DNA from: Beroe forskalii
Lineage: Eukaryota > Ctenophora > Nuda > Beroida > Beroidae
Direction of reading: 5' to 3'
DNA: 64,000 bases
Assembly (NCBI GenBank): GCA_011033025.1
Contig: WFMF01000261.1
Location: forward strand, 62,001-126,000
Shown one piece after another: positions 1,151 to 52,441 of the stretch. A program made the position numbers and the translations under genes. Below the pieces are notes generated by a model, which was not told the origin of the DNA, ran no database searches, and saw only the letters and a list, made by a program, of their open reading frames with translations. Positions within the stretch are counted from its first letter, which is position 1. Each line of letters opens with the position of its first letter.

Positions 1151-1330
1151 AACTAATAATAACCATTAGGATATTGTGCTTTGAGCTCTAAAAGGATATT
1201 GACACCTATAGGTTTAAACTTCTATTCTGGCAAAAGCATTAATTCAAGACCTTTCGTACTCGAATCAACCATTTTTGAAATTTTGACTAATCATCTCAGC
1301 TTCAAAAACGTGTTTGTAGGTTTGTTAATA

Positions 1331-5923: not shown

Positions 5924-7880
5924 AACGTTACTGCATCGATCAGAAGTCTTGGAATCAGCTGATCCTGATCCTGAAGAAGGACTTCACTGAGATCCAGAGT
6001 CAGTTCATGTTTGACATGTTGGATTTGGAGGAGAAGGGGAGTCTGGATATCCTGGATTTCCTGAACATTACGGAGGCTATGAAGCTGCAATACGATCTCA
6101 GGAATGTTACCACTTCTATAGAAAACACAAAGTTCGGAGTCATAGCCAGGTAACCATGGGTGTTAGTCTGATAGCCTGGTAGCCAGGGTGATTGCTAGGA
6201 AACTATGGCCAGGGTGATTGCTAGGGTGATTGCTAGGGTGATTGCCAGGTAGCCAGGGTGATAGCCAAGTAAACACGTATGTTTGCCAGGGTGATTGCCT
6301 GGTAGCCAGGGAGATAGCCAGGTAACCAGGGTGATAGCCTGGTTACCAGGTCCTGGTAACCATAGGTGATAGTCTGATAGACTGGTAATTAGGGTGATAG
6401 CTAGGGTTATTGCCAGGGTGATTGCCTAGTTGCCAGGGTGATAGCCTGGTAACAGTAGTGATAGATGGCGATTGCCGATTTAAGACTGTTTCGCTTATTG
6501 ATTTATTGAGAGCGAAATCTCGGTTAGTTAATAAGTTAATAATATTGCCTTCAAGATATTTTGCTCGGCTTTTTGAAACATTTCGGTTTATATTTACTGA
6601 ATTTCGGTTGCAGACAGTACCCACACTTTTTCAGGCGTATAATAGGCTTGAGACTTAACCTATCCTTCTGTGGTCTCCTCTCCCCTAAAACCATCACCAT
6701 CAAATCCATCGGGACCTGCGTCCTGATATCCCACACCGTCCTAGCTCTGTCCTGTACGATGATAGAGAGTGAGTCCGCCATCACTGTAATCCGGATAATC
6801 AACACCTGCCTGCTGCTCCTCATGGTCATGGAGCAGGTTCTAAGACTCCTGGCCAAAGGAAGGGGATTCTTTCAGAGCCTTACTAACAGATGGGACTTCT
6901 TCATTGTATCCATGTCCTTCCTCTCAATGGTCCTCTTCTGGATAGTGTGAGTGTGAAATGAATATAGGCAAATGCTTCCCATTTGAAGCATTTGCTTCTA
7001 GAAAATCAACATTCATATCACAAAATAAAAGCAAAACTGCGTGTCTTATTAAAAGCATAAACATTGCCAAACCCCTGTTTATTTTGACTTGTCACTTGCC
7101 ATGTTGCGAAATAATACCCTTCATTTTGAGAGTCTTTATCGCTTCACAACCCCTTGATATAATGCTGCACATTTCAGTTCAGTAGTGGTGCCCCATGAGA
7201 GGACCATCATTAGAGACGTGTGTCAGATAATTTGGGAAGTTCTCATCATTATCAGACCCGGTATCTCAGGGACCATTCTTGTTTTCTTCTACAAGGTAAC
7301 GGCTTTGGATGCAAAGTGAAGCTAGCTTTTCGTAGAAATCTAAGTGTCGCAACACTAAAGAATGAGTCTGAAATTTCCACGCGTCCACCGTTTTGAACTA
7401 TGATAATGTGAAACATATAATGTGGATTTCTCAGAATTTAATTTTCCTGCCGGTCAGCCCTCGGGGTTGCGAAACCGGCATATAACGCATATAACGCATC
7501 TGTTTGTTCCATGCATTGACATGGATGATGCAGTTCATGAATACTGATGTTCACATTATAACACTACCTATTTAACACACTTGTGCGACATGGAATTTTC
7601 AGAACGATTCTTATTTTTCGGTGTCATGAAACCCTGTAACGCCTTTCAGTACTGTAATATTCTTCACAGTTCATTCAGGACCAAGCAACACGAAAACACG
7701 GTGATATTAGAATAATGGCACCTATATACTTATATAACGCCTTTTAGTGCTAAAATATTTTACACACGTCATTAAATCATTATGTTATAGCAACACGCTG
7801 ATAACACTACACAGTGATAATCAATGTCATTCCGTGCAGGTGATAAACGTGTTATCAGAGCTGTTTCTCTTCATAGTGGT
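5924..7880 (+). pseudogene. Duplicated 3'-half fragment of the two-pore channel gene
   Basis: Exons at 5924-6149, 6635-6946, 7178-7295 and a partial one from 7840 match the later gene at 24770-24995, 25220-25531, 25762-25879 and 26377 onward, with the same lengths and phases. All three complete exons are open and keep their splice sites. They encode the linker between channel domains with a degenerate EF-hand (DLEEKGSLDILDF), then S1-S3 and the S4 region of domain II. The fourth exon breaks off at AGTGGT, where an 84-bp minisatellite takes over. No S5, pore or S6 exon follows before the next gene, so it cannot encode a complete channel from this window. It could be the tail of a second TPC gene whose 5' half lies upstream of the window. 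Confidence 0.8.
6138..6460 (+). repeat. Minisatellite on the splice donor, GCCAGGTAAC-type
   Basis: The exon ends ATAGCCAG|GTAACC. The following 310 bases are irregular repeats of GTGATAGCCAGGTAACCAGG, GATTGCTAGG and GATAGCCTGGTAGCC, so the exon end and the donor are copied many times. The second gene copy has only two or three units at 24985-25045. The array expanded after the duplication. Confidence 0.8.
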
Positions 7881-8282
7881 GCTGAAAACACTACACAGTG
7901 ATAATCAATGCTACCCCGTGCAGGTGATAAACGTGTTATCAGAGCTGTTTCTCTTCATAGTGGTGCTGAAAACACTACACAGTGATAATCAATGTCATTC
8001 CGTGCAGGTGATAAACGTGTTATCAGAGCTGTTCCTCTTCATAGTGGTGCTGAAAACACTACACAGTGATAATCAATGTCATCCCGTGCAGGTGATAAAC
8101 GTGTTATCAGAGCTGTTTCTCTTCATAGTGGTGCTGAAAACACTACACAGTGATAATCAATGCTACCCCGTGCAGGTGATAAACGTGTTATCAGAGCTGT
8201 TCCTCTTCATAGTGGTGCTGAAACACTACACAGTGATAATCAATGCTACCCCGTGCAGGTGATAAACGTGTTATCAGAGCTG
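7799..8282 (+). repeat. 84-bp minisatellite containing an exon start (6 copies)
   Basis: Each unit holds AACACTACACAGTGATAATC, the acceptor CCGTGCAG and the first 41 exon bases beginning GTGATAAACGTG. Exon starts recur at 7840, 7924, 8008, 8092, 8176 and about 8259. The period is 84 bp (28 codons), so the array reads as one open frame repeating VINVLSELFLFIVV. The intact gene has a single copy at 26377. The 171-codon open frame is a repeat artefact, not a separate gene. Confidence 0.9.
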
Positions 8283-8800
8283 TTTCTCTTTTCTGAATGA
8301 TGAAAGTGATAGAACACTATCACTTCTTCCAATTTGATGGAAAAAGGGCTCATGTAAATGCACCAGTGAGGGCCAAAGTGACAGTAATAGAGGATATTCC
8401 CCACTTCTTTCTGAATTGATGGAGGCCCTTATTCAAATAATGGCAGGGTGAGAGAACACCCTCACTTCTTTCAAATTGATAGGAAAAGGCCCTCGTTCAA
8501 ATGATAAAAGTGAGGGCCTAAGTGAGAAACACTCATTCATTACAAGGTGATATTAAAATGTTCTCATTCAAAAGATAAAAGTGAGGGTCAAAGTGAGACA
8601 ACACTCACTTCTCACTAGTTGATAGGGAAAGGCTCCCATTGAAATGATAAAAGTGAGGGCCCAAGTGAGAAAACACACACTACTTACAAGTTGATAGGAA
8701 AAGGCTCCCATTGGAATGATAAAAGTGAGGGCCAAAGTGAGACAACACTCTCACTTCATCGAAACTGATAGGAAAATGCTCTCACATCTCTTGAATTGGT
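8283..8800. repeat. Minisatellite of GATAAAAGTGAGGGCC units
   Basis: Imperfect units of about 60-110 bp contain AATGATAAAAGTGAGGGCC, AAGTGAGACAACACTC and TGATAGGAAAAGGC. It abuts the 84-bp array with no unique DNA between. No gene is seen. Confidence 0.75.
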
Positions 8801-9830: not shown

Positions 9831-9831
9831 G

Positions 9832-10075
9832 AGCATGGCTGTGACTGTGCTAAAAAATTATTGCACGAGGCTAGCCACAAGTTGAGTGCAATAATTTGTT
9901 TTGCCGCACGAGGAGCAAGCCGAGTGCAACAATTCCAAATAATTGGACGAGGAGCAGCCCAGTGCAATAATCTTATTAGCGACGTGACTATAAGTTATCA
10001 TGCTCTAAGTGTATTAACCCATGGGAGGATTGCACTATTACACGCCTAGGAGCACCCTCAAAATGGGCTTATACT
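9832..10075 (+). repeat. Dispersed repeat, TGCACGAGG...GAGTGCAATAAT type, copy 1
   Basis: It begins GAGCATGGCTGTGACTGTGCTAA and includes three turns of TTGCACGAGG...GAGTGCAATAATTT. It closes with CATGCTCTAAGTGTATTA and GCACCCTCAAAATGGGCT. The same order occurs at 35177-35430 inside an intron of the MZB1-like gene. GAGCATGGC near the start is answered by CATGCTCT near the end, so it is probably a small interspersed element with a foldback core. Confidence 0.75.
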
Positions 10076-10099
10076 GATTAGAACTCATTGTAAGTCATA

Positions 10100-26100: not shown

Positions 26101-29100
26101 TCTATGTTTTACCAACATGGATGATGCAGTTCATGAATACTCAAATTCTGAACCAACGCCTTCTGAAACAAATAACACTACCTATCTAACACTGTGCGAC
26201 TTGGAATTTTCAGAATGATTCCCATTTTTCGGTGTCATGACACCTCTGTAACGCCTTTCAGCACTGAAATATTCTACACAGTTCATTCAGGACCAAGCAA
26301 CACGAAAACACGGTGATATTAGAATAATGCTACCCTGATAACACTACACAGTGATAATCAATGTCATTCCGTGCAGGTGATAAACGTGTTATCAGAGCTG
26401 TTCCTCTTCATAGTGGTTATTGTGTACGTGTACATGGTCATTGGGTTGGAGCTGTTCGCTGTGGCTAGCAACGCCCCCGAGGATAACTACTTCGAACAGT
26501 ACGGCTGTGGACTGGTGAGTTAGGGGGGAATTCAGAAAATATGGAGTCAAATTGCTAAATTGATGAGAAATTAAGAGTAGTATAGATTTATTTGTCTCGA
26601 TTACTTGGGTTTTTGAACAACAGGAGATATATGATAGTAATTTCAAGGGAATATAACATTTCACTCGAATACTCTGAACAAACAAAAGTGGCTAGCCCGA
26701 TGCCCTTTGAGCGCCTCCTTGGTGGGACGCTAAGGGGACGCCAAAGGGCATTAGGCTGGGAAGAGGGAACTTAAACCCACCTGGGAACAAACTGCAATTA
26801 TCTCCAGGGTTTCAAGCGGCCTGCTTGCTCTCAAAGTGAAATGGTGTTATTTCTCATATCACTCTCTGCAGGGGTTCAAGCGGCCTGCTTGCTCTCAAAG
26901 TGAAATGGTGTTATTTCTCATATCTCTCTCTGCAGGGGTTCAAGCGGCCTGCTTGCTCTCAAAGTGAGATGGTGTTATTTCTCATATCCCTCTCTGCAGG
27001 GGTTCAAGCGGCCTGCTTGCTCTCAAAGTGAGATGGTGTTATTTCTCATATCACTCTCTGCAGGGGTTCAAGCGGCCTGCTTGCTCTCAAAGTGAGATGG
27101 TGTTATTTCTCATATCACTCTCTGCAGGGGTTCAAGCGGCCTGCTTGCTCTCAAAGTGAGATGGTGTTATTTCTCATATCACTCTCTGCAGGGGTTCAAG
27201 CGGCCTGCTTGCGCGTTCTTCACGCTGATCCAGCAGATCACGAGCAGCAACTGGCACGAGATGATGAACTCTGTGACAGCTGCCAGCGGGGTGTGGGCTT
27301 ACTTCTACTTCTGTATCTTCTACATCACCATCAACCTGGTGCTACTGGATCTCACTATTGCCATGACCATAGAGATGTACAACGCCATCAAGTTCCAGTA
27401 CTTTAACAAGAGCAAGAGTGGGGCCGTGGGGGAGGAGAACGAGGGCGTCATTTTCGAGGTTATTAAAATCTACTGCAATTGATGTCAGTTTTTGATTGAT
27501 CCTGGTGCCATATCCAATAGAAGGTAGTTGCAGGATCTAGTTTACAGAATAATTATTAATTGGATACAAAACTGCAATCTCGATGACTGATGAACACCCT
27601 AGAACCGCACGATGATTCCATAGTACAGAGTCTGTACAGTTCGAATTTTAGAATTTACGGAGTTCCTACAAATTGAATTTTAGGACTTATGCATGCTTCC
27701 ATGCCTCAGTACCGTACGATGATTCTGCACGATTTGAACTCCCCCTTGCCTCAGGTTGACGAGAACACCCCAGAAAAGCAGCACTCGGAGTACGACACTC
27801 TGCGCAAGAAGAGCTGGTCCATGGGCTGGAGACACCTCCAGGTAGGTCATGTGATATCGTGGGTGTCGTGTGTTCTGAGAACGGCTGGAATTCCCACATG
27901 ACCGCCACTTAGCCATTCGTACCTCCGTTTTAACAGTGTATCCGCGAACGTTCATGGTGCCGCACGATTCGGAAATTTCAGAATGATTTTCATTTCTCGT
28001 GACTCTATACCCATTCATTATCATTGAAAACTGCCAACATCGAAAAGACTCGAGGTGGAATAATGGAATCCTCTCAACGAATTTCCTCCCAGGTGACCCA
28101 AAACACGAGTGGTTCGTGGAGGAAGAGTGTTCTTAGCACGGAAAAGGACGCGGGTAAAGTCAGTAACGAGGATTTGGAGAAGATCCAGAAGTTTCTGGAG
28201 AAAGTGGAGATAGAGCATGGGGTTCTCAAGGGTAAACCCTACCTGGGTGCTAAAGATAGGGATATCGTCAATGTCAAGCAGGTAATTCAAAACAAACATG
28301 CTTCACCATGACTACAAGGATTCTTATTCGATTTCAAATTCACTGATTCTTAGTAATAATTATGATAAATGACTTAATGATTCTGCCGAAATTCTGCTTT
28401 CTACTAACGACATTTATTAAGCAAATCTGTGTGTGTACCATATCATCGCGCAGTTATCGGAAGACAAGGTCTCTGAAGCCAGGAACCGTGAGAACCCAGA
28501 GTGCATCCTTCATTTCTGGTACGCACTGCTGGACAGCAAGGAGAAGGAGGTAGGGGAGGTGTTGTTGGAGTTAAAGGACCACCACACTCACGAGGCTTCC
28601 ATCAAACTCAACTTCAACTCCCCAACGTACGTGACTAAGTCATAACTTGTGATTGAAGAATCTACGTATAAGATTCATTGCAATGGACTTATTTTATAGT
28701 CTCTCACTGTTTATAAAATGATTGACTATTTCACTAGTAATTTTATCACTCGCGATTGAAGTATAGGTATGTTCATTTTCAGCGAAAGCAAGTTCCAATG
28801 AATAATAAACACAGCTAACCAACTTACTAAACTACTAAAGTACTGAGTCACAACTCACAATATGAATATTGAATTGTCGCATTAAACTCAACTTCAACTC
28901 CCCAACGTACGTGTCTGTATCATCACTTGGAGCATGTAAGCATATTCATTCAGCAATGTACATAAACTCATTGAGGCTTTCACTATTCGTGAAGAATTTC
29001 ATTAAAATGAATTCATGTCCACAGAGTCTTGTGTGATACTGAACACAACGCACTTGCCACTCTATTTCGCTGCTAACTAACATGACTGCCCCATAACAAA

Positions 29101-32100
29101 ATAACAATAACATCATCATATTATTTTCACTCGCGATATTCATTTCCAGCGCAAATCATTTTCAGTGAATCCTAAAAACAATTCACTATTCAATAAGTCA
29201 CAATTCACTAAGTCACAACGTTTAACATTGTTGCAGGCGTCCGGTGAGTTGCCGTGTGATGGGCGGTGACGATGTCTACACAGACAACATCACATTCCTG
29301 AGCAGGGATGAGTTGGAGGCCCCGGAGTGGGATTACCACGGCTTCCTCTCCACCAACTGGGCCGTCAAGAAGTCACACAGGTAGGCTTCCTCTCCACTAA
29401 CTGGGCCGTCAAGAAGTCACACAGGTAGGCTTCCTCTCCACTAACTGGGCCGTCAAGAAGTCACACAGGTAGGCTTCCTCTCCACTAACTGGGCCGTCAA
29501 GAAGTCCCACAGGTAGGCTTCCTTTCCACTAACTGGGCCGTCAAGAAGTCACACAGGTAGGCTTCCTATCCACCAACTGGGCCGTCAAGAAGTTACACAG
29601 GTAGGCTTCCTATCCACTAACTGGGCTGTCAAGAAGTCACACAGGTAGGCTTCCTCTCCACCAACTGGGCCGTCAAGAAGTCACACAGGTAGGCTTCCTC
29701 TCCACCAACTGGGCCGTCAAGAAGTCCCACAGGTAGGCTTCCTCTCCACTAACTGGGCCGTCAAGAAGTCACACAGGTAGGCTTCCTCTCCACCAACTGG
29801 GCCGTCAAGAAGTCTCACAGGTAGGCTTCCTCTCCACTAACTGGGCCGTCAAGAAGTCCCAAAGGTAGGGAAAGACCGGTTTACCGAACCAAAACCGGAA
29901 TTTTGAGCAACCCACAAACGAAACCGTAAGCGAATATTTTGATTTCGCAATTGACCGTGTAGGGAGTGCTCGGTTAACCGAACCGAAACACCGGTTAACT
30001 GGGCGCTTTTAGCCAACCGAAAGCGTAGCCAGATTTTTCGAGAAGTTGCAACCAGTCGTTTGTTACCCACAGGGCCCAACTCAAGAAGAACAAAGTCCGG
30101 TTAGAAGTCCTGCTGTATGACGCTAAGATGGGACAAGTTTCGGAAAAGAAGGCAAAGAGGCAAACTCTAACTGCTTCCATCACAGGCTATGAGGTATATA
30201 ACTACCGTGAATATTGGAGAACAATGTAAATGATATTCAATATGCTCATCGTTTTGTTGACGCAAACTCGACGAATAGAAATAGGGCGTTCAATTAGTTC
30301 AGATAATTCAATGCTATGATTATCAAACAATCAATTCCACCGTGCGTATGGTATCTTGAAGAACACTGCACAGGAAAGCAGGAAGCGATGGGATGAAAGT
30401 CAGAGGGATATCAGGAAGATAAACAAGATGTTTGGGAATATCTCGTATCTGATCCAGAGAAACGCGTACAGAGTAACATCAACTACTGAGGACGACTGTT
30501 CGGTGTACAAGATGAAGGATGTCGAGGGGTATTACTTATCGGTGAGTGTGTCTTAAAGCACCTTTGAAAGTTTAAACTTGATTCAATATTCTATGTATGT
30601 AAGAACCTTTTGAGATTCAAACTCTACTCCTTATTCATGGCCAAATCATACTCTGAGGTGATCAATTTCGTTGTTTACACCTAGCACTATGTCACATATT
30701 CATCAAAACACAGCACAGTGATTGATATTAATTTTACTAAACACATCCTACCAGAGTCAGGACGACCGAGTGATCTACAGGATAAAGAAGAGTAGCAGTG
30801 AACGAGTACTGAGCAAGGCTGAGCAAGCGTGGAACCAGTGCATGAACCTGGGCAGATCTACGGTAAAATACCTTCAATATTACTATATTAAACATCTCAT
30901 TCTGATCTCAGTTCTTCCTGAGCGATTGACTAAATTTACAAATTGGGTGGAAGACGGAGTAATAGTATGCACTTGAAATTGCCGCATTGAAGCGAATTTC
31001 GTCAATTAACCTATGACATTTTCAAGCTGAAAGGATTTAATTATTACAATACTTACTGGCAAATAATTGATAACCTAAAGCTAAAGGTATGAAAAACGTC
31101 TTCCTATCAAACATGTAAAGCATAAAACTTTTCAAATAAAACTTTGTGCCTTTTTGCAGATTGCCTATAAAATATCTATAATTCAAAATTGGATGAAGGA
31201 AGTATCCTTGGTTTTATCCTCGGTAATTCTTATCTTCTCGTCATATTATAATGTCCGAAACACCATTCTCCTGTATTCTAAACACGCACACTTCCGTCGT
31301 TTCAGTGGGGTAAGAGCAGATCTAGCAAGCCAAGTCGCATCTACCCAACCCTGAGATCGCTGGTGTTCTCAGACGAAATAAACCCTGGGGACTTGCTGGG
31401 TCCTACTGAGAACAGGTCAAGAGACCAGAGCGATATCATCAGTGGTGCCAGCGATGAGGATACTGACGACTATAGTGTCGGCTCTGATGAGGGTCAAGAG
31501 ACAAAATCCAAAGCAAAGCGGAGGAAAGCCAAGAAACTGACGAGTGATAACGCGGATAATGTCAGGAAAATCATAAGGCTGGGACTGAGCAACCTCAAGA
31601 TAAAACAACCGAGTTTTAGAAGGTTAACTCCCACATCCCTGAAACCTCCTGATATGAAAGACTCATCTTCAACGCCAACATCTGTCAAGAGTTGCAAAGG
31701 TATTTGAAGTTAATTTAGGTTTTTAATTGAATGTTTTGCAATTTCGTCACAAATGCAAAGCTTATTAAACTTCTCAAGCCTATCATGCAAATCCATATCA
31801 ATGAAAACTCATCCAATTCACCGCAGATTTCCGGAACTTGATAAAAGATGACAAGTCAGACGAAGACAAAGCCGTCATTAAAACAATGTCCTTGCCAGCT
31901 ACACCCATCTCAAAGGCTAAGTTTCATTCAGGTGCTTTTGGGAAGGGTCTACGAGGAAAGTTCACTAAAAGTGATGAAACAGACTTAATGAACTCCTCGC
32001 TAAGCTCTCCGAAGCAACCATGGCAGAGAGAAAGATCCAATACTGATGCTGGTGATAATCTACACGAGTTTAAGAATGGGGAAATAGTAGAAAAGCCAAA

Positions 32101-36130: not shown

Positions 36131-37183
36131 TGCTATTGGAAAAGGTGGTTATTAGTCGAAATGTTTTGAGTTAATACTATTTTAGATGTATTTAATTATA
36201 CTACCTTACAAGACAAAATTGAAAATAACATGGGACAATAATTCCGGGGATCGAAATTTTGGGGGTTCGAAAATATGAGGATTTTTTCAAAAATCCCCAA
36301 ATTTCGTACCCCAAATTAAATTAGGGGATATTCGCCTTTCTTCAAATTTGAAAAAAATAAGGTTACTTTCGGGAATAAATCATAACTTCAGAAAGGCCAA
36401 TATCACTGAGGTGATCGATGTAGTAGAATTTCCAGTACAAGAACACTCTTATCGAGTCCAGTTTAGATGGTTTTATTTAAAATTAATGCGTCTCAGGTAC
36501 TTATTTTGAACTCTTCTGCATTGATATACTTATTTGGGAATTCCATATTTTATGCACTGATAGTCAAATCACAAACCTGCAATTAACTAATTTGGGGGAA
36601 ATAATTTTGGGGATCGAAATTTTGGGGTACGAAAAAATGGGGATTTTTTCGAAAAATCCCCAAATTTCGTACCTTTTAAATATGTCTCGTAAGGTACTCA
36701 TTTTTTTCATGATAGATTTACACAGTGTAAAGTACGTCATTGATAATTAAATTTCTGGAATAATTCAATATTATGTTCTGTAGCCTGCAGGAGGAAAACT
36801 GATTTTCATGAAAGGAGTAAATGAATTACTTCAGCATTTCAGGCGAGCAAAAAGAACCCAGATCAATTCGAAATCAATTACATACATTTTTATACAAATC
36901 CCACAAAAAGTCTCAAACCAAAACTCATTGAAATCGTTGCGTGCATCAAAATAAAGAATACTCTCAAGTCTCATGCAATTAATTCAAAATCTACTCGAAA
37001 AAACTTTCTAGCTTTACGTCAATTCAGTACATGTTCAAACAGAAAGTTTACAAGATCACCATTCACCGTGTCATGTGAAAAGTATCACTATCTCTTACTA
37101 AATGCCCCGGTGAATCCCCTGTAAGACACGAAGGTAGCATACTATCTCTTACTAAACGCCCTGTATGACACCAGGGTAGCATA
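36131..37183. other. Intergenic region with a duplicated hairpin
   Basis: This separates the 5' end of the MZB1-like gene from the 3' end of NBAS; both are on the minus strand. Two copies of a self-complementary unit lie at about 36235-36325 and 36592-36675: GGGGATCGAAATTTTGGGG and AAAAATCCCCAAATTTCGTACC. The NBAS 3' untranslated region should start below 37184. Two extra copies of the NBAS stop region lie at about 37080-37180. No gene is seen. Confidence 0.55.
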
Positions 37184-37236
37184 CTATCTCTTACTAAATG
37201 CCCCGGTGAACCCCCTGTAAGACACGAGGGTAGCAT
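37078..37236 (-). repeat. Tandem copies of the NBAS stop-codon region
   Basis: The unit CTATCTCTTACTAAATGCCC...GGTAGCATA occurs three times on the plus strand, starting near 37089, 37142 and 37184. Read on the minus strand, each copy contains a GCATTTAGTAAGAGATAG-type end with its own stop. Only the copy at 37184 is joined to the last NBAS exon; the two beyond it lie downstream of the stop. Confidence 0.8.
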
Positions 37237-40200
37237 ACCCAGACCGCGTGAACTGTGCCATGAGACTGAGGGCCTCCACGAGATTCCCTGCCTCTCTGAG
37301 TCTGCCTGCTGCTTGTCTCACACTGTCCAATGTCACCCCCTCCCCTTCTGTCATGTGTCTAGCTACCACAGGGTAGAGCTCTGTGTGGGTGAGGTGGGTG
37401 TAGAGCTGTCTGTCTATCACCAGGTGGAGTAAGGTGGGGTTGTCAAGGTGGGTTAAAGTCAGTTCAGGGAGGGTGTCAAGGTGGAGATCATGGTAAGGGG
37501 AGGAGAGTGTTATCAGGTGGGAGAGAGGAGCGGGGAAGAGGCGGGAGCAGGAGGTTATCTCATCTTCAGACAGGGGCCCACAGGGCAGAGAGATGATGTC
37601 AACCAGGAGGGGGCTGAGAGAGGGGCCTGCTGCTGCGTCCTCAGGCAGACTGAAAAGTAGCGGAGGGGTCAGCGTTCTGTGTTGTGATACGAGTTCCAGA
37701 ACAATAATTTCTAAATATCATCTCAAAACTAAATTTAAAATACATTTAGTCAATACATAAAGTCAATCGAACTTTAAGTCAATCACAATGTGAAGTATCA
37801 GAGAACCGAAAGAGATAATCAACGTGTCAGTACCTAGCAATAGTAATCTCTTAATCAACGTGTCAGTACCTAGCAATAGTAATCTCTTAATCAACGCGTC
37901 AGTACTTAGCAATAGTAATCTCTTAATCAACGCGTCAGTACCTAGCAATAGCACGAAGAAGTCGTATCTTCCATGATGACGTGTCGTCCGCTTCACTCCA
38001 CAGTTTCACAATATCAAATAACACGTGACAGATTTCCAGGTCTTTGATTGGTCGACACAGATCAGCGAAGAACTCTTCAGACAGTACACTACTGGGCTGT
38101 ATATCGAGATCTGGCCAGTGTGAGTTGACGAGGGGCTTTGTTTTGAAGAAAAGGAGGAGTTCCGTGTCATTTTCTGTCGTGAGATGCTTCTCTGTGGGAA
38201 AATTACAAAATTAGTTATGAATTAAATAATTTCATCCAAGAATAGTGCCCTTACAAAAAGAGCATGAGAGAACTTGAGAATATGATCATAGGTATATCAA
38301 TAAAATTATCTGGAGCAGTTTTGTCATTGCTTCCGTTGATTTGCTGGAGGTCAATGACTTGGAATCATAAAAGTTTAAAAGTTCTGTTCTTACGTAGTTA
38401 CGTTCTTACCTAGTGCAGCTATGACAGCCTCTTGAACACCTGGCACCAGATTGGTGGCACTACAAACTGCCTTTAGCTTCTCTATGATGACTTGATGAGG
38501 CACTAACGTGTCCGAGACATGGATTAGTCGCTCGAACAACTCGCTTAGGTTTGTCTGAGGTGAGGAATATGACAATAAATCGCACGTGTAATGTTAATTA
38601 TATTATACTGGATTCGAAACCACATGAAACCCTGAAACTTTGAACTGGAACCAGGTCGTTTTACCTGGTACTGTGTTCGGCATATTGATTGAAAGGATGG
38701 GAAGAACCTGTAAAGGAATAGCTGAATAGGTGACACTGTTTCTTACCGATTTTAGATGTTCAATCTCTGGGCGGTTATCCAACTGCACCGGGACATTCCG
38801 ACCACTAAGTAGAAACTCTATGGTTTTATCAGCCACCTCCTCAGGTTCCATAGCAGGAACCCTGGCTGTGAGCAAGGACTTCACATCCACAAAGGAGATG
38901 GGATCTAGCCACATTGCCATGACCACTACATCCAACACATCCACAGACTGATAAGAGAGGAGGTAACTCAGGAAGTAGGAGTCCCAATACTCCGCAAGCA
39001 GCTCGTCAGGGAATCTCCGCAGGAATTCCGCTAACTGAGGGAGGGAGCTGCTGATCTCCAGCCTCAACTCCATGCCGATGTCGGTGTTGTCTGAGAGACA
39101 GATGTCTGTGAGGAGTTGTTCTTTAGTCGTCTTGTCCAGGTTCTTTAGCAGGGTCTGCACTTTACTCCACCGAGCGGAGTAGGAGGTGGCGGCGCTCTTA
39201 CCTGGTGAAGTGAGAACTTGGTACTTTAGTAGGTACTGGGGTACCGATATAAAGTATAACCTTATAACGACTTTGAAAATCTATGTACAGAAAACATAAA
39301 ATCAGTCACCACAAAACCAATGTTTGGAATCCCTCATTCGATCAAAACAAAATAAATGGCGAAATAGACCATCGCCCCGGAGTAAGCCACGAGCTCACAA
39401 GAAAATAATTTTCTTCCATACCGGGCAAGGATCTGCATTAACTGCATAAGTGCATAAGAAGTGGTGGCTCCCTCACCCTCTCCATAATCGGATTCAAATA
39501 CTACAAATTTAAACGCTCTTATTCTAACCTTCTCCATGGAAGAAGTACTTGTGAGCGTAGCAGGAGAAGACTGCTGACTTGTTCAGGTTGGGATGTAGAG
39601 TGGGAGCAACTTTAGCTATCACGTGCACGTTTCCTGGTGATGAGTGGGAGTTATTAAGGGAGTGAGTTGGAGTTAAGGTAGTGAGTGGGAGTTAGGGGAG
39701 TGAGTGGGAGTTAGGGGAGTGAGTAGGAGTTAGGGGAGTAAGTGGGAGTTAAGGGAGTGAGTGGGAGTGAGGGGAGTAAGTGGGAGTGAGGGGAGTGAGT
39801 GGGATTATTAAGGGGAGTGAGTGGGAGTGAGGGGATTGAGTGGCAGTGAGTGGGAGAGTTAGGGGAGTGAGTGGGATTGAGTGGGAGTTATTAAGGTAGT
39901 GAGTGGGAGTTAGGGGAGTGAGTGGGAGTTAGGGGAGTGGGTGGGAGTTGAGTGGGGTTAGGGAGAGTGGGGAGTTAGAAGAGTGGGAGGTTGTGGAGGG
40001 AGGGAATGGGAGTAGGGAGTGGGTGGGAGTTAATGGGAGGAGGGGGAGTTAGTGGAGTGAGTGGGAGTTAGGGAGTGAGTGGGGAGTGGGGTGGTAGTGG
40101 GAGTTGGGGGTTAGGGGGATTGAGTGGGAGTTAGGGTTGGTGGGGTTAGGAGCCGGGAGTTAGGGGGACTTGGGATGTTTTAGGGATTGGGGGGAGTGCG

Positions 40201-43200
40201 AGTTAAGGGAGTGATTGGGAGTTAGGGGAGTGAATGGGAGTTAGGGGAGTGAGAGGGAGTTAGGGGTGAGGGAGTGGGATCAGGGGTTAGGAGAGTGAGT
40301 GGGGTTAGGGAGGAGCAGGGTTGGGGGGAGTGGGAGTTAGGGGGAGGGGAGTTGGGAGTTAAGGTTGGAGTTAAGGTAGTGAGTGGGAGTTAGGGGAGTG
40401 AGTGGGAGTAAGAGGGGTGAGTGGGAGTTAGGGGAGTGAGTGGGAGTTAGGGGAGTGAGTGGGAACTGGGAGTGAGGGGAGTGAGTGGGAGTTAGGGGAG
40501 GGAGTGGATGTGAGGGGGCGTTAGGGGAGTCAGTGGGAGTTAGGGGATACAATGGGAGTTAGGGCTTTAGGGGGGTGAGTGGGAGTTTGAGGTTTAAAGA
40601 TCTCTAATTTACCATCATTAAGAAGAGGTTTTACCATCATTAAGGAGAGGTTTGAGTATCTCCAGCTGAGCTGTAGGGGAGGAAGCAGCAAGGAATTCCT
40701 TGTAATCGAGAGCAGGGAGAGCGGATCTGATCTTGTTAACTGCTGCCAAGTTCACCTGATCCTCCACTAGGGAGTAGTAAGCTGATAGAGTAGAGTACTT
40801 AGTGCCTCCAATCAGGGGGTAGATATCCTGCTCACAGAGGGCTCTGAAGTCTTCCTTCTTAGAGTACAGCACTTCCTTGATGCTCTCAGAGATCTGCGGA
40901 AAAGTGCAAAGTAAGGACTTGGGTTATGTTGTTTACTGCACAATCAACCGACCTCACGTAATCTACTTTTTGATTGATGAAGCATCACAATCAAGCAAAT
41001 AAAGGGCTATTTAAGATTCCCTAAGTCCCACCCACCCTCTTGTCGTTGAGGAGAAGCCACTGAGCATGTTTGAAGTGTATCTCCCACAAGTCCATATCGT
41101 ATTTCTTACCCAGAGATATAGCCAGGTCAGGGCACTCCTGAGCCGCTATACTCAGCACAACCTCCCTTCTGTACGCCTTGTCGTACGTGAAACGTGGCAC
41201 GTGCACGTTACCATGCAACTCCTTCAGAATGTTACCTTGAAGAGTGGTAATCAGTGAAACGTTACCATGTAACTCCTTCAGAATGTTACCTGGGAGAGTG
41301 GTAATCAGTGAAACATTGCCATGCAACTCCTTCAGGATGTTACCTGGGAAAGTGGTAATCAGTGAAACGTTACCATGCAGCTCCTTCAGAATGTTACCTG
41401 GGAAAGTGGTAATCAGTGACACGTTACCATGCAACTCCTTCAGAATGTTACCTGGGAAAGTGGTAATCAGTGAAACGTTACCATGCAACTCCTCCAGAAT
41501 GTTACCTAGGAGAGTGGTTATAACTGAAACGTGGCACGTTATCATACGATTGCAAATAAGATATATTTTGCAAAATGTTAAGAGTAATGAACATCACTTC
41601 ACAGATTATTCACCTTGTAGAATATCGCTGATTTTGTTAGAAATCATCTTGATATCATGGGATGGAATGGTGAGGGCACTGCTGATGATGCTGTTGACGG
41701 AGTGTTGCTTGTCAATATGACAGCTGGTTTGGTGGATTGACCTCCCTAGCAGCATGTAGTACAACTCCTCCAGGGAGTCAGTGTTGCTTATCCTGTCTTC
41801 TATGTCTGGGGGCAATTAAAGAATTGATATTACTATGTTTAGAAGATATTCAGAACAGCAAAAGAGAATTCGCCCTGAGCTTGAAGGAATCATATTCCAT
41901 TGATAGCAGCCAGAATGTAAGGAATTTGTGACATTGGCTTATTTATACATCATTTTTTCAAAAAGGTTATATTGCCATTTTTCACATAAAAAGTTAGTTT
42001 GGACATCTGTAGTGACCAAAAATCTTTTTTGAACATGATATTACCTTATTTGTGGCAACTGTGAGGTTAAATATGAGGCTGATTTGAGCAAAAAATGCCT
42101 AACTTCACAGCTTTTGGCCATTTAATGCATCAAAGGAGTGTTTTAGTCCTCCAAAAGTATTTTTTTTCTTGATCTGGAGGTCAAAATCCACCTTTTAGGT
42201 CAAAATTTAGGAATTTGTGACCTTGCGTTGTGGATTTGAGGCTAACACAAAATCCAATTTTTTGATAAAAACATGGGAAGGAAGACACTTATCCTCACCT
42301 GAAATCTGCCAACAAATCTTGATGAGTAAAATTTTGATTTGAGGTGATCTTAGACAGTTTCAGCTTCATTTTGGTATCAAGAATATGTCTTTACTTGCTT
42401 TTGTTGCTGTTTTGAGGCTAAATTTTGTCGCGACATCTCAAAAACCTGGATTTTACTGTTTTAGCCACTTCAAGCATCAAAGAAGTGTTTGAGTCCTCCC
42501 AAATTATCAGTCTCAATCAAAAGGTCAAAATATACTTCCTTGGTCAAATTTGGGAGTTTTTGACCTTGCGTTGTCCATTTGAGGTTAAAAAATGGCCTGA
42601 ATTTTTGATAAAATCCCCGGGAGGAAGTCACTTAACCTCTCCTGAGAGCCACCAATCCATCCCATGAAGAAAAATTTGGGTTTGAGGTGATCCTAGACAG
42701 TTTCGGCTTCATTTTGCCATCAAGAATCTGTTTTCATTGGCTTTTGTTGCTGTCTTGAGGCTAAAACTGTGTCGCAACATCTGAAAACCTGGATTTTACA
42801 GTTTTTAGCCATTTTTAACCTCATGGAGGTGCTTCAGTCCTCTTAAAGAAATGTAATCTTAATCAAGAGGTCAGAATATACTTCCTTGGTTCAAAGTTGG
42901 GAGTTTTTGACCTTGCGTTGTTCATTTGAGGCAAAAACAAGGCCAAATTTTACGATGAAATTCCCGGGAGGACATCGCTTAACCTCTCCTGAGAGCCACA
43001 AATTCATCTCATTGTGCAAAATTTTGGTTTGAGGTGATCCTTGACAGTTTCAGCTTCATCTTGGTAACAAAAATATGTTTTCATTGGCTTCTGTTGTGGT
43101 CTTGAGGCTAAATTTGTGTCGCGACATCCGAAAACCCGGTTTTCGGAAAACGGGCCTAAGATTAACCCCTGAGGGACAACATAAAGAGGTAGGACCAGTT

Positions 43201-46200
43201 TAATGCCACCAACTTGTAGCCACCATGGGTACTACAAGTTGGTAAGACAACTTCAGGTCAGGCCCTCTCCCTCTGGGAATAATAGGTCGTCTACGCGCGA
43301 AGGTACACCGCCTCTTTGGACCAGACCACGGAAAAGTAAAGCAGGTAGCCAGATCTATCCATGTCAACTTGTAGCAGCCATGGGTACTACAGTTTGGTGT
43401 AGGATTGGTTTCTTCTGTGTTGATATTGAGGTTAAGAAGGTCGGTCTACGCGCTGATACATAATCGCCTTTCTGATAACCTCAACCGGCCACGAAGGACT
43501 TGACCTTTCCAGTGAAGACTCTTCTTGTAAGAGGGTCTTCGAATTTTTGAGACAGGTCCCAAGGCTGTATCTCTTTTAGTTTTTGAGTTATGAGCTCTTT
43601 GTGAGGGAAAATCGAGTCGCATGTCACAAATCGAAAGCGACTTTTTAGGTGGTTTTAACCTCATAAAATCTCAACGCAAGGTCGGATTTTGATAATTTTT
43701 GTTGCAAATGATAGATATCAATGAGTTCTTTCATATAAGACTGTTTCCAAGCATCTGGGATGCCTATTTCACTGCACAGAAGTCTTTAAGTGTCAAAAAT
43801 GGCCAACCTGCATTCTGGCTGCTATCGATGATTCGTTAAAAATCAAAATATAATAATCTCATCGTTTAATACTACTCCTTAATTTTAAATTTATAAAGAA
43901 AAATGACGTGAAGTAGACATCTCACCGCATAATTACTCACCAAACACCTCGTGGTGGGACGCCACCCTCTGAATCTTGAGACAGGTGTCCACTTCCCTGC
44001 TGTCTGGGAGCTTCCTCTTCCTGTCCTCCAGATAGACCGGCAAGGAGTGGTACACGTCCAGCAACCCGTCCACCTGAGGGGAGTGGGGGAGTCAGTTGGG
44101 CCCTGCCTAAGTAGGTATCAAAAGTATTATCTAAGCAGCTCACCAGATTAGAGCGACAATATCGTTATAACCACTACTTTCAGACAAGCTTTGATTTTAT
44201 AAAAATAAAAAGCAGCTGACGACGTATCACATGATACTCGAAAGCTTCTGATCTCACGTATCAGTCAACCGTTTCAACTTCTTACCCTTAGATCTTAAAG
44301 CACTGTAACGTTAGGTAACGAACAGTGCTTACAAAGCACTGTTTGTTACCTAACGTTAGAATCTATCTACTTTCCCACAATCCTTACTCCCTACGACTTA
44401 TTAAAGTATTAAGTACGGAAAGCACTGCTACTTAACGTTAGAATATCTCTAGGTTCCCACAAACCTGTCCAGCGGGCACGTGCACTAAGGAGAAGTGGAG
44501 GAGACGACTCTTTCCTTCCTCGTCAGAGTAGGCAGAGTTCCTCAGCAGACGGACACACACAGGGACTATCTCAGTGTAGTCTGGGGGGATGAGTTACAAA
44601 AATAGGGTAGAAAATTAGGATGTGAGGGTGAAGAGTGAAGACTGTAGATATTTAAGTACTAACAAAACCATCCTACACAAGATTTATGCGGTCGTTGACC
44701 GTTCTAAACCGCTTTGAAGACAGAAAGACAAACCACAGATCATCCTAGATGATTCATCAGTAAGTATCAATTCAATGTAAATGAACCATATGACTACCGA
44801 AGAGCTGATGTCACCAAACCTCTGTCAATAGCCTTGAGGCAGATGTGTTGGCAGTAAGAAAGGTTGGAGTTCTGATAGGCTATCTCAGCTATTCTAGGGT
44901 AGGTGTAGGACCGGGGTACATTCAGCTTGTCAGACAGACTTATCAGTAGGTTCTCCTGGTGGGCGGGTTTTAGGATTTGAAATTTTAAATACTATCGAAT
45001 AAGATATGATAGTGAAGAATTGAAATATAAGATCTAGATAGTAACCTACAGCACACTCCCATACACATATAAAGCCTTATTTAGTTTTTAAATGATTTTA
45101 ACGATATTTCAAAAGCTTAGAAATTGGGAACCTTCAGTTCCTACACCCCTACAGTATGTCAAAGCTCCCCTCTAACCTGCAGGTAGTTGTTGGGAGAGTG
45201 TGAGATGCAGTTCCAGGCCAGGTTTTCAGGTGTCTCCGTGTCCAGTTTACCAGGGGCAGAAGGACTCCCAACCTCTTCATATCCACCAGAACATCTAGTT
45301 TTAGACGGTACGAGGCGAGAAGGGTGGAGGTTACACCGGAAGTCAGCAGAAACCTGAAAGACTCGTTACTAAGGCCCGTATTCACCAAATTTGCGTTAAG
45401 TGGGACCTTTAAGGACGAATTAAAGTAGTACATTAAAGTATCAGTTTTAAAGTTGCCACTTAAAAGTTAAACAAAAGTCGTATTCGCCAAAACGATGAAA
45501 TCTCGGACTTAATTTTTCAGTGCGACCTCCCACTTTTGTAAAGTTAAAGTGGCAGCTCGTAAGTTTAAGGTTGACGTTGAGGTACCTTACAAAAAGCCGG
45601 TTTAAGTACGAGCTAAAGTGCCACCTGATCCCAATTTTATTTGGTGAATACCAATTTTATAATTTTTAAAGGTCGTACTTTAAGTTAAAGTAACAAGTAT
45701 GACCTCACACTTAAACACAGATTTGGTGAATACGAAAACGGAAGCTGCCACTTAACTCCACTTTAAGGACGAGGTCACCCTTACAAGGCCGTTTAAGTAT
45801 GAACTTTTCGATTGGTGAATACGGGCCTAAGTTATTTTGGCCCATATTCACCAAATTTGCGTTAAGTGGGACCTTTAAGGACGAATTAAAGTAGCACATT
45901 AAAGTATCAGTTTTAAAGTTGCCACTTAAACAAAAGTCGTATTCGCCAAAACGATGAAATCTCGGACTTAATTTTTCAGTGCGACCTCCCACTTTTTTAA
46001 TGTTAAAGTGGCAGCTCGTAAGTTAAAGGTTGACGTTGAGGTACCTTACAAAAAGCCGGTTTAAGGACGAGCTAAAGTGCCACCTGATCCCAATTTTATT
46101 TGGTGAATACCAATTTTATAATTTTTAAAGGTCGTACTTTAAGTTAAAGTAACAAGTATGACCTCACACTTAAACACAAATTTGGTGAATACGAAAACGG

Positions 46201-49200
46201 AAGCTGCCACTTAACTTCACTTTAAGGACGAGCTCACCCTTACAAGGCCGTTTAAGTATGAACTTTTCGATTGGTGAATACGGGCCTTAGACAAGCTATC
46301 TTTTGAAACTCATATTTAGTTCATCAAATCTATTCTTAATAGTTAATAACGGAAATTTAAGAACAACTATTTGTCCGTCGAAATCCCATATGCCGTTTAT
46401 GTCACATGTACGACGCAATGCGCATATTTTCTTCTCCTAGTGTATTTCAGCTGTACAAGGCTAAAAGTTTACAACATGCCCATTTAGTGTATTTAAATGC
46501 AGTGCAGTCTTTTATGATAGGTACATAACGTGCAATGATCTGCTATATACTTGTATAGTGCTATGGCTTCCATATTATGCGCCCATAACCCAAGAATCCA
46601 ATATAAGAGTTCGATTGTTGGAATCTTACGACTAATGGACCATATTTTCTCGCATCTGTTTCAGTGGTAGCTGTGTAAACTTGTAAAGCTCTGCTATTTC
46701 AATTTGCATTTTGGAATTGGAAGTGATCCAATACAGCTGTCTAGGCCTGTCTTGCTAATGAAATGATTTCTAAATAGAAAATTCAACCTACAAATCTAGG
46801 TTTGCTGGGTATACCTGTAGCCTAAAATAATAGCCCCCATATCATTATACCAAGATCTCCAAGTTTGAAGTTTGATAAGAGATGACACTGTACCTAACGA
46901 AGTCAATGTAAGGATGGTCTATAGAGTTACCTAACAGAGTCAATGTAAGGATGACCTATGTTAGTAGCCACAGTACCTAACGAAGTCGATGTAAGGGTGG
47001 TCTATGGAGGTAGCAGCTTGGAGGTAGAGGAGAGAGTATTTCTCAGCTAGATCCCGCCACTCTGCATCACCCAGATACTCCTGTCTGTAGATGGAGATGT
47101 TCTGTAACATCTCCAAGTCACCCGTCTCCAGACACTGCTCAAACACCAAGCTGAGGGGAGGAGGGTTGGGGAGGAGACTCAGAACAATAGGATTACTGGT
47201 TCAAGCAGCCTACGTTTCGCAACCTGCAGTGCAGGCGAGGCATATAGCCTCCAGAGCCCCAAGGAGGTTATTGGTATAGCGGCGATACTGATAGCCGATA
47301 TAGCAGCAAATAATGATGAAAAAACTAAAAATTAAAGGTAAAGGAGTAACTGGGCAGCACATTTGTAGTTATTGTTGCTATTGTATACGTGGACAAAGGG
47401 CTACGTATGTTAAAAGATAAATGTGTTAGTTCTCCGTTTGTGAAAAGAGCTTTCTTAGCTCTGAAGTACACGTGTTTTTACGAATAGTGCTGGTGACGTG
47501 GAAAAGTAAACGTTTTACTGTTTTACGAAAACAGGGTCGTTAGTACCTGGAAACAGAAATCAAACACAATGACCCCGTTGTCGACCAGCTTCCTGACTAA
47601 TTCGACAACAGATAAATCCTTGTGTTTGAAGGAGGTTCGGACTAGGGGCTCCATGAGCTGACGACACAGGGTCTCGTCTGAGAAGGAGTTGAATATCCTG
47701 GAGGGAGTGATTCCTTCTAACATCTTGTCAGCATATTCTCCGTACTCAAGCTTCAGGCGCAGCTCACTGAAAGTGAGGAGTTGGGGAGTTGATAATAGCT
47801 ACTGGAGAATAATAGCTACTAAAGAATAAGCTACTGGAGTTGGTGAGTTGATAAGAGCTTCTGGGAAGTGGTTCCTGAAAGCTGAAAATCATCATCGGTT
47901 TTTTTTAAATCATACATTCAGCTCTTATTTATTCTTTTATTGTAATGCTCTGTTTTTTCGGGAAATACGAAGCTTTTTGTTCTAATTTTCAATAACTACA
48001 GTTCACTGTTATCGAGGGTATCGATGATCTCCTTAGCAATAGGAACCCACTTCTTCTGAGCCTGACATCTGCAGAGACACTGCGAGACGAATTCCACCTC
48101 ATTCTCTTTTGGGATGAGGCTGTTGAATTCCTGCGGAACAGTGGGCTAATGATAGGGACAGGTTTAAATAAAACCATGATGTTTTGGAAGTCACTTTTAC
48201 CACATTTCTTGTCATGGAGAAAAATACAATAATTCACCAAAACCAGAACCTTTATGAATTATTGTTAGCAGTGTCTGAGTGCCCCACTTCCCACTCACCA
48301 GACATTGGAGAGTCCCACTTCCCCACTCACCAGACACTGCAAGACCTGTAGAGCAGGTAACAAGCTCTCCTCTGACACCTGCACCACATAGTCCCAGATG
48401 ATGCTCCTCACATCTAGATTTGATGACGTCACACTCTCGAGATCCTGCACAAAGGGCAGGAAGACCTCCACCATGTGACCCACTCTGTCAGAGAGCTGGC
48501 AGTTTGCCAGCAGACAGGAGAGGAGTTGGGGGAAGGGGACAGAGAGGATGGAGCTAAACCCTTCACCCTGTGGGAAAGGGAAGGTGGCATGAGATTAATG
48601 GGTTTTTAAATTTGGAAATTTGGAAGAACTCATTGAAGACAGTATTCGGGAAGTGATGCTCGATTTGGGAATTTTTTACAATAATTGAAGCAGCTTTAAA
48701 CTTTTAAAGTTCTAAACACAAAACCTGGAAGTTGAGAAGTGTGACGGACTCCTCTATCAGTTTCAGGACACTCTTGTAGATGTGGATGGGAACCAGCCTC
48801 TCCAGTGCCAGGTCAATAAGGGCAGCAGCGTGGTCAAAAAGCCCAGACTGCGAGAGGATCTGATCCACTCGTGTGGTGTACCAAAGGTACACACTTTGTG
48901 GGGTCATGGGTCCCAGCAAGGGGGTGAGGGAGGTGGGGATGTCCAGGGAGTCAGGGACTCTGAGAGGGAGGTACAGTCATGGTGATTTGTGTGATGAGAA
49001 AGAACATGGAATTTTATTGAGATTTGCAACTGTGCAATCAAAAGTAATGTTACAAAATGTTACAAAATTGTTGGTGCAAAATTGTTGCAAAATTGCTAAT
49101 GTTGCAGAATTGCTAATGTTGCAAAATTGAGGTACAAAATTGAGATGTATACTCCTACTTCAAGCAGCTTGTTAAAAATGCACAACCAAGATCAATCTTG

Positions 49201-52200: not shown

Positions 52201-52441
52201 GGGATACAGTATATTATCATTGTTATTATTTCAATTAGAGAACACTTACCTCTAAGACAAAAATTGAATTTATTGGTGATGGAATAAAAACTGAAGGCAT
52301 TGTAAACTTTTCAGCTTCGATTATCTCCATATTCTTGAATGGCAGCAGAATGAATTTGCCAGTGGAGGAAAGTATAGCAATTATATCCTCAGACCACCAT
52401 CCTCCATCCACAACTGTCTCAGAAGCACCAAGTTCTGGTAT
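37184..52441 (-). CDS. NBAS: NBAS, NRZ-complex subunit (C-terminal two-thirds)
   Basis: NBAS sits on the ER, where the NRZ complex tethers COPI vesicles and aids Upf1-linked mRNA decay. Exons in transcript order: 52250-52441, 51655-51918, 50555-50676, 50039-50402, 49715-49835, 49272-49466, 48725-48959, 48331-48567, 48000-48130, 47547-47766, 46977-47150, 45177-45353, 44820-44955, 44465-44580, 43941-44073, 41614-41805, 41036-41235, 40636-40893, 39529-39633, 38747-39201, 38410-38554, 37942-38191, 37184-37649. Family matches: GGWWSEDIIAIL at the propeller end; FYQKIENREYGEALLLANKF; AKRGAWTALDVL with LSSLPETLDPYNYSDILPE; the Sec39 part with VDQILSQSGLFDHAAALIDL; PENLAWNCISHSPNN; YDMDLWEIHFKHAQWLL; IYPLIGGTKYSTLSAYYSL; the end GRLREAGNLVEALSLMAQF. 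Most junction phases agree. Exceptions: an internal one-base shift near 45245 and mismatched phases at the 47547/47150 and 49715/49466 joins. The N-terminus is not in the recognised part. Confidence 0.88.
37832..37945 (-). repeat. 36-bp minisatellite multiplying an NBAS splice donor
   Basis: The exon 37942-38191 ends (minus strand) GCTATTGCTAG|GTACTGAC. The donor recurs with a period of exactly 36 bp at 37940, 37904, 37868 and 37832. Each unit runs from GTACTGACRCG to ACTATTGCTAG (one copy reads TGCTAAG). The whole unit starts GT, ends AG and contains a TTGAT branch-like motif. Confidence 0.9.
39640..40595. repeat. G-rich minisatellite GTGAGTGGGAGTTAGGGGA in an NBAS intron
   Basis: About 950 bp of degenerate 15-20-bp units occupy most of the intron between exons 40636-40893 and 39529-39633. 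Viewed from the gene strand it is CCCTAACTCCCACTCAC, so it forms a very long pyrimidine-rich tract right up to the acceptor ACTCATCACCAG. The plus strand has repeated GGG runs able to form quadruplexes. The proline/threonine-rich open frame at 40337-40552 (-) is a by-product. Confidence 0.9.
40610..40658 (-). repeat. 23-bp duplication of an NBAS splice donor
   Basis: On the minus strand the exon ends CCTCTCCTTAATGATG|GTAAAA, then repeats CCTCTTCTTAATGATG|GTAAAT 23 bases later. The first donor (exon edge 40636) preserves the reading frame into the next exon; use of the second leads to a stop. Confidence 0.85.
41218..41560 (-). repeat. 54-bp minisatellite at an NBAS acceptor, open in frame
   Basis: On the minus strand, units beginning GTAACATTCTGAAGGAG and ending CCACTTTCCCAG lie head to tail. 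Possible exon starts are at 41235, 41289, 41343, 41397, 41451 and 41505. The 54-base unit encodes GNILKELHGNVSLITTFP and is open in the NBAS frame, so any acceptor keeps the frame and adds multiples of 18 residues. Each unit also has the layout of a tiny intron: GT start, CTGAT branch-like motif, pyrimidine tract, AG end. Confidence 0.9.
41940..43180. repeat. ~345-bp tandem repeat array in an NBAS intron
   Basis: The intron between 41805 and 43941 contains three to four diverged copies of a unit of about 345 bp. Landmarks are GTCGCGACATCT near 42428, 42772 and 43118, plus TTTTTGACCTTGCGTTGT, CTTAACCTCTCCTGAGAGCC and TTTGAGGTGATCCTAGACAG. Further related sequence lies at 43180-43700, where CAACTTGTAGC(C/A)(A/G)CCATGGGTACTAC occurs twice. 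There is no coding signal. Confidence 0.8.
44299..44365. repeat. Inverted repeat in an NBAS intron
   Basis: AAAGCACTGTAACGTTAGGTAACGAACAGTGCTT-type sequence is followed at once by its near reverse complement AAGCACTGTTTGTTACCTAACGTTA. Both arms are about 30 bases. AAGCACTG and TAACGTTAGAAT recur near 44415-44445, so this may be a remnant of a small foldback element. Confidence 0.7.
45373..45827. mobile_element. MITE copy 1, GGCCCGTATTCACCAA ends
   Basis: The 16-bp inverted ends are GGCCCGTATTCACCAA and TTGGTGAATACGGGCC, and TAA flanks both sides. That fits a TWA-duplicating PIF/Harbinger-like MITE. It lies in the NBAS intron beyond 45353. It has a neighbour 11 bases away with the same sequence and orientation. 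The open frames on it are artefacts. Confidence 0.85.
45839..46286. mobile_element. MITE copy 2, tandem with copy 1
   Basis: About 448 bp, nearly identical to 45373-45827, including both inverted ends (left end GGCCCATATTCACCAA, right end TTGGTGAATACGGGCC). Only small substitutions and short deletions separate the two copies. This points to a recent tandem duplication or a second insertion next to the first. Confidence 0.85.
46880..46985 (-). repeat. Triplicated NBAS splice donor
   Basis: On the minus strand, CCTTACATYGACTTCGTTAG|GTAC occurs at exon edges 46977 and 46894, with a variant ACTCTGTTAG|GTAACT at 46931. The spacing is 46 and 37 bases. The copy at 46977 belongs to the exon; the others lie in the intron and repeat about 35 exonic bases. 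Confidence 0.85.
48270..48345 (-). repeat. 32-bp duplication of an NBAS splice donor
   Basis: On the minus strand, CAGTGTCTG|GTGAGTGGGGAAGTGGGAC is followed 32 bases later by CAATGTCTG|GTGAGTGGGAAGTGGGGC. The first donor (exon edge 48331) gives the right phase to the next exon at 48130. The second is a copy in the intron. Confidence 0.85.
50677..51654. other. NBAS intron with a GC-rich insertion
   Basis: Sequence at about 50815-51440 contains GC-rich stretches (GGCGCGGCGGAACGGGTCGC, GCGCGCCGCC) in an otherwise AT-rich intron. It may be an inserted element, starting near ACGCCCTAAAATAAAAATAAGGGCG, but I could not fix ends. Open frames there are arginine- and alanine-rich and look like composition artefacts. 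Confidence 0.45.

Follow-up and report, generated by a model that had tools for sequence, protein, structure and literature searches.

Why should tandem repeats lie across the edges of coding sequence, carrying copies of splice sites, and in some genes of stop codons, along with them? The question is raised by a 64 kb stretch of the comb jelly Beroe forskalii (G000:C316:62001-126000, referred to throughout as the window), part of a genome of 216 Mb in 1134 contigs, where ion-channel copies and a gene labelled NBAS carry minisatellites at their exon edges. The arrays are probably "mirages", as such repeats have been called in lancelets: short tandem duplications (~20-85 bp) that straddle a coding edge and then expand.

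The window is rich in minisatellites, with 44 rows reported by Tandem Repeats Finder (TRF). At seven of the ten sites where the original prediction had placed a repeat copying an exon edge, a TRF row runs across an exon or coding edge; the remaining three (6149, 46977 and 48331) are weaker, and at the last two, which have no TRF row at score 50, the repeats were read by eye in the sequence. These arrays, together with one counter-example, are the following.

6150..6453, plus strand: degenerate 12-20 bp array running from the donor after exon 5924-6149 (TRF and sequence reading)
7797..8290, plus strand: 84 bp x5.9 array over the acceptor 7839/7840, unit of 41 nt exon and 43 nt intron
26801..27212, plus strand: 64 bp x6.4 array over the acceptor 27191/27192 of the Ion_trans gene, unit of 21 exon and 43 intron nt
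29340..29869, plus strand: 44 bp x12 array over the donor 29380/29381, unit of 41 exon nt and GTA
37117..37203, minus strand: 42 bp x2.1 array at the NBAS-like 3' coding end, over an in-frame TAG or a donor, either being possible
37816..37951, minus strand: 36 bp x3.8 array spanning the donor of exon 37942-38191, unit of ~10 exon and 26 intron nt
39641..40587, minus strand: 19 bp intronic minisatellite that crosses no edge (the counter-example) and fills the intron it shares with 40608-40653
40608..40653, minus strand: 22 bp x2.1 duplication spanning the donor at the exon end near 40636 (TRF)
41205..41532, minus strand: 54 bp x6.1 array spanning the acceptor of an exon that starts near 41235 (TRF)
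46893..47012 (limits approximate), minus strand: exon end plus donor in about three diverged copies, read by eye
48285..48338 (limits approximate), minus strand: donor region in two copies 32 bp apart, with ~7 exon nt, read by eye

The strength of these cases is uneven. The array at 6149 has ~8 exon nt in common with its exon and is a weak case, as are the diverged copies at 46977, which match at 27 of 30 positions. The copies of the 54 bp array remain open in frame. At 40636 the duplication itself was confirmed, with a unit of 22 bp by TRF against the 23 bp first given. The case described as lying at the NBAS stop does sit at the coding 3' end, where in-frame stop and donor stay ambiguous. 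Unit length gives no sign of a coding constraint: by hand count, six of the 13 units that cross an edge are divisible by 3, which is no signal.

The arrays had also been said to begin exactly at the splice site, and this description has to be given up. The distance between the junction and the end of the copied stretch ranges from a few to more than 40 nt, and because a tandem unit has no fixed start, an exact start at the splice site is not something these arrays possess. Among the clear splice cases, the position of the junction within the repeated unit is highly variable, which is as expected for duplications that merely straddle an edge. Units that start with GT and end with AG, earlier taken as having the form of a new intron, are an automatic rotation of any tandem repeat containing AGGT; since an array has no privileged start, the GT...AG form of such a unit adds no evidence.

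Repeats copying the edges of coding sequence are genuine; they are present in unrelated genes and extend beyond the window to MCM, KAP, NSF-like and kinase genes, far from the locus where the pattern was noticed. The outside sample comprised 18 segments, each of 10 kb and taken at round coordinates from nine large contigs, together with 30 kinase loci, and exons were predicted ab initio by a small gene finder that had been trained on the genome itself; a setting with too low an exon penalty, which gave 1567-2012 exons per round, was judged to yield mostly false exons and discarded. Five arrays cross a coding edge there.

L040:3001-4308: MCM acceptor, 55 bp x24, unit of 44 exon and 11 intron nt
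L040:310-414: MCM donor, 41 bp x2.7, at a predicted edge
L045:1197-1346: KAP acceptor, 52 bp x3, at a predicted edge
L034:7198-7263: NSF-like stop codon, 27 bp x2.4
L011:2270-2346: kinase stop codon, 36 bp x2.1

The hosts are supported by Pfam matches (MCM, E 1.1e-87; KAP, 3.1e-18; AAA, 1.1e-9; Pkinase, 8.6e-59), and the label "NSF-like" is one we presume from the AAA match and an NSF-lid match just below its cut-off (26.7 vs 27 bits). A usable stop was present in 14 of the 30 kinase loci, and one of these 14 is crossed by an array. With the NSF-like stop added, and the NBAS-like stop left out as ambiguous, two of 15 stops are crossed, as against nine of 195 splice boundaries (Fisher P=0.18). 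The stop-codon cases show that splicing is not required, and they argue for the coding edge, not splicing, as what the arrays have in common.

A comparison between paralogues dates some of these arrays. A segmental duplication (1157-7880 and 21569-26417, the longer pieces 89-95% identical) carries both ion-channel copies, here copies A and B, whose coding sequences diverge at 29 of 697 positions (4.2%). Array copy number differs between the two. Within the shared sequence copy A holds two extra arrays (6150-6453 and 7797-8290), both at exon edges: the intron of copy B at 24996-25219 measures 224 bp against 485 bp in copy A and retains only a stub of the first array, and the region of the 84 bp array is present once in copy B (26335-26417). 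These two arrays were gained recently, after gene duplication. Copy A ceases to match copy B at the 84 bp array and is cut off at 8290, and the site at 7840 belongs to a truncated paralogue, in that the exon known from 26377-26514 is not continued past the array.

Do arrays cross edges more often than random placement would allow? In a null model that places duplication units uniformly, with edge crossing counted for arrays in predicted introns, nine of 24 arrays from the window and the outside sample cross an edge where 3.26 are expected (P=0.0011); without the truncated paralogue the figures are eight of 23 and 2.99 (P=0.003). The window alone gives six of 10 against 1.85 expected (P=0.002), this being the place where the pattern was first noticed. 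The list of events was entered by hand, as were the lengths of units and introns, with some judgement involved; arrays of period >120 bp, the array L048:1896-2275 (inside a predicted exon), the stop-codon arrays and the sites at 46977 and 48331 were left out, and 6286-6453 was counted as intronic. The junction, then, is not avoided and may be favoured.

A word test covered the whole genome, irrespective of exon position. Pairs of an identical 8-base word lying 22-52 bp apart were counted per single site for three splice-like words and five controls, the latter being the three words reversed together with TTTGACAA and AACAGTTT. All three splice-like words exceed all five controls in pairs per site, in counts to which single arrays supply dozens of matches: CAGGTAAG stands highest of the eight (945/6031, or 0.157), followed by TTTCAGGT (797/16,291; 0.049) and TTTCAGAA, an acceptor word without GT (1426/30,779; 0.046, of which ~68 would arise by chance). 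The reversed words give 122/4967 (0.025), 62/10,021 (0.006) and 87/11,160 (0.008), and, with single counts scaled from a sample, TTTGACAA gives 352 pairs at ~13,300 sites (0.026) and AACAGTTT 168 at ~11,500 (0.015). Separate loci were also counted by hand, from the first 100 matches of 945, 797, 1426, 352 and 122 for CAGGTAAG, TTTCAGGT, TTTCAGAA, TTTGACAA and GAATGGAC respectively. Among the matches listed for C1-C155, these words occupy 10, 19, 29, 10 and 2 loci in the same order, or ~1.7, ~1.2, ~0.9, ~0.75 and ~0.4 per 1000 sites, a dispersed family having been set aside only for CAGGTAAG (C2, C14) and GAATGGAC (C2, C58, C113). Over C1-C196, again among the matches listed, CAGGTAAG occupies 17-19 loci against three for GAATGGAC (P=0.005-0.002); as a control, GAATGGAC is weaker than TTTGACAA. 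In the course of these counts two families of dispersed minisatellites, based on GAATGGACCCTCCGGA and CAGGTAAGAGTCGCCAGTAGGTCAGATAAG respectively, were seen on many contigs.

How such arrays might come to lie at coding edges can be put in a few steps. Short tandem duplications would be frequent in this genome, and some would by chance straddle the edge of a coding segment. A duplication inside an exon would usually damage the protein, whereas one lying across a donor, acceptor or stop would leave one coding copy intact and place the extras in an intron or the 3' untranslated region (UTR); for that reason an edge array would be tolerated and could grow, probably via slippage or unequal exchange. 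Selection would thus act through tolerance, and the additional copies of the splice site would normally go unused in splicing. A bolder form of the idea seems to us unlikely: a duplication process itself biased to coding edges, genome-wide in this lineage and arisen or persisting independently of lancelets, would constantly make extra copies of splice sites, often GT...AG-shaped, beside real exons, and so provide precursors of introns, as well as shifted splice sites, in steady supply.

Several results weigh against our explanation. The excess of edge-crossing arrays is significant with the discovery window included; outside it, three of 14 arrays cross against 1.41 expected, which is not significant (P=0.14). 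Local-repeat coverage is flat from -30 to +240 around the boundary (15/195 at the junction, 10-18 at intron offsets), in a count that excluded false exons in the 63 bp array of L045, these not being among the 203 boundaries of a separate count. The control words differ widely among themselves, from 0.006 to ~0.026 pairs per site, and by separate loci, among the matches listed, the splice-like words are only ~1.3- to 2-fold over TTTGACAA. Relaxed splice words in the sample show no excess in tandem over their reverses: NAGGTRAG forms three arrays at 105 sites against four at 152 for its reverse and YYYCAGGT four at 101 against two at 80, and none of the seven relaxed splice-word arrays lies within 90 bp of a predicted exon edge. 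The edges, moreover, rest on ab initio exon predictions made without transcripts. Much of this is what pure geometry would give, with random tandem duplications in a minisatellite-rich genome with short introns and the edge-crossers simply a share of the survivors. Flat coverage, the modest lead by separate loci and the outside result all favour such an account, as do the 44 noncoding arrays of period 20-120 bp in the window and 180 kb of outside sequence, and we would put its chances only a little short of even. The combined excess over random placement, though driven by the discovery window, and the lead of the splice-like words over every control in pairs per site speak for something more. 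Pure geometry overlaps with the mirage explanation, being the version of it that lacks an edge preference, and the likelihoods given to the two are not mutually exclusive.

Other explanations fare worse. Were AG|GT itself, or a process coupled to transcription or splicing, to promote duplication and feed new GT...AG introns, the top tandem rate of CAGGTAAG would agree with it, and intron gains from AGGT duplication have been published (PMC4974935). Yet TTTCAGAA, which lacks GT, is found in tandem as often as TTTCAGGT; AGGT therefore gives no advantage, and the candidate of an AGGT-specific process is weakened by that count. Among the five acceptor arrays, moreover, AG|GT is absent from the 64 bp (AG|GG) and MCM (AG|GC) arrays and present in a single copy out of three in the KAP array, and stop codons are crossed as well. 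Seeding specific to splice junctions is thus improbable, and the specific choice of junctions that the original prediction had proposed is not supported, given the crossed stops, the lack of a junction peak in coverage and the frequency of TTTCAGAA in tandem. Hardly better placed is the composition account offered alongside it, that G/C-richer exon edges attract slippage. Exon windows do have a mean GC of 52% against 38% for noncoding sequence, but noncoding arrays (period 20-120 bp) have a median GC of only 35%, the array rate is flat at 30-60% GC and higher only below 30% and above 60%, and edge-crossing units span 32-59% GC; the noncoding arrays lend this alternative no support, and we consider it a poor prospect. 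Least probable of all is an assembly artefact, through repeats collapsed or falsely expanded: the copies differ from one another (mean pairwise identity of 95-97% in the 44, 64 and 84 bp arrays), and one NBAS-like stretch of 1801 bases, for which a second assembly copy was considered, gave a single match only.

The mirage explanation gains from comparison with the system that gave it its name. In the parts of the amphioxus reports drawn on here, mirages occur in Adh3, the globins BflGb6 and BflGb9, TnC and PGBD5, splicing is reported as undisturbed and intron gain is proposed (PMC3087553, PMC3902484). The arrays described above resemble them as minisatellite-like duplications over donors and acceptors, with units part exon and part intron, in several unrelated genes; many of the amphioxus copies, on the same accounts, keep AG/GT (PMC3087553, PMC3902484). 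Units of 22-84 bp are like those given for amphioxus Adh3 (10-72 bp) and shorter than those given for the two globins (~150-160 bp), and stop codons are crossed here as well, a difference from the amphioxus cases described. The features of mirages include a unit spanning an exon-intron boundary, the involvement of both 5' and 3' boundaries in several unrelated genes, copy number that is unstable between haplotypes or somatically, and a cephalochordate host. Units that span the boundary are found at predicted boundaries (for example, the 64 bp and MCM 55 bp units), and boundaries of both kinds are involved in ion-channel, NBAS-like, MCM and KAP genes. As to copy number, the observations are the difference between the ion-channel paralogues and the single match of the NBAS-like stretch. 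The host, however, is no cephalochordate, as its COX1 fragment is 45% identical to mouse (59/131) and lancelet COX1 would be far closer; this last feature concerns the known range of mirages and not their mechanism. The COX1 in question lies on a 13,339 bp contig (G000:C1134, L049) and is very divergent, which fits a comb jelly, and rich in serine and phenylalanine, with TGA read as Trp. It seems likely, then, that the arrays are a further instance of mirages, in another host, and that they extend the kind to stop codons.

Repeats at such boundaries have been published outside lancelets too, for humans and in single cases elsewhere. In human genes within segmental duplications, variable internal tandem repeats that lie at exon-intron boundaries have been connected with new introns (PMC2812944). 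These too are minisatellites (~30 bp units), some at boundaries and expanding in recent paralogues, although about half change coding sequence and the possible new introns have transcript support (PMC2812944); the copies described here, by contrast, are mostly intronic and known from DNA alone. Intron gain by AGGT duplication has been described for ATP2A1/2, a 24 bp case in fission yeast and a potato RdRp (PMC4974935). There, too, tandem duplication of an AGGT segment can give a GT...AG unit; in the cases that source presents, the duplicate is the new intron, whereas here the copies adjoin an existing edge. The dual-specific splice sites of human tandem repeat genes such as UBC likewise have AGGT in tandem, although those repeats, as portrayed in the source, are coding units with demonstrated alternative splicing (PMC10809524). 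TRF classed 13% of one published comb jelly genome as repeats (PMC8527503). We found no genome-wide survey of boundary repeats in another phylum in a literature search with most subscription journals outside its scope.

If mirages extend beyond lancelets, they offer a natural experiment on how introns originate, how splice sites shift and how the ends of proteins change. In such a genome it becomes possible to ask which copies of a splice site are chosen by the spliceosome, and if an array ever turns into an intron. A simpler rule, under which arrays are tolerated at every coding edge, is suggested by the stop-codon cases and is to be considered ahead of splice-specific models.

The names of the host genes in the window call for some revision. 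The joined 370-amino-acid translation of the second ion-channel copy matches Pfam Ion_trans (E 2.1e-19), and its best PDB matches are T-type calcium channels, with TPC1 weaker; "TPC" therefore holds as an ion channel, with T-type calcium channels ahead of TPC1. For the gene with the 44 bp array (29381), neither Pfam (to E 0.01) nor the PDB (below E 0.3) gave a match. Nor did the NBAS-like translation (944 + 687 amino acids) match Pfam to E 0.01, and "NBAS", a name that rests on the original prediction, was not confirmed. The introns of this NBAS-like gene also hold long-period repeats away from edges, at 42328-43143 (347 bp x2.4) and 45373-46287 (459 bp x2.0). A single-exon open reading frame (ORF) of 745 amino acids at 18919-21156 on the minus strand resembles an LDL-receptor-repeat seven-helix receptor.

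In the outside sample, a 20 bp array of the TTTCAGG type (L048:3783-3879, minus strand) has TTTCAG at its end, a short way before an ORF that opens with a signal-like sequence and has no Pfam match; judging from the sequence, this array possibly lies at a 5' UTR or trans-splice acceptor. A predicted gene at L044:1978-9130 (plus strand) appears to carry repeats of the scavenger-receptor and LDL-receptor types ahead of a seven-helix receptor.

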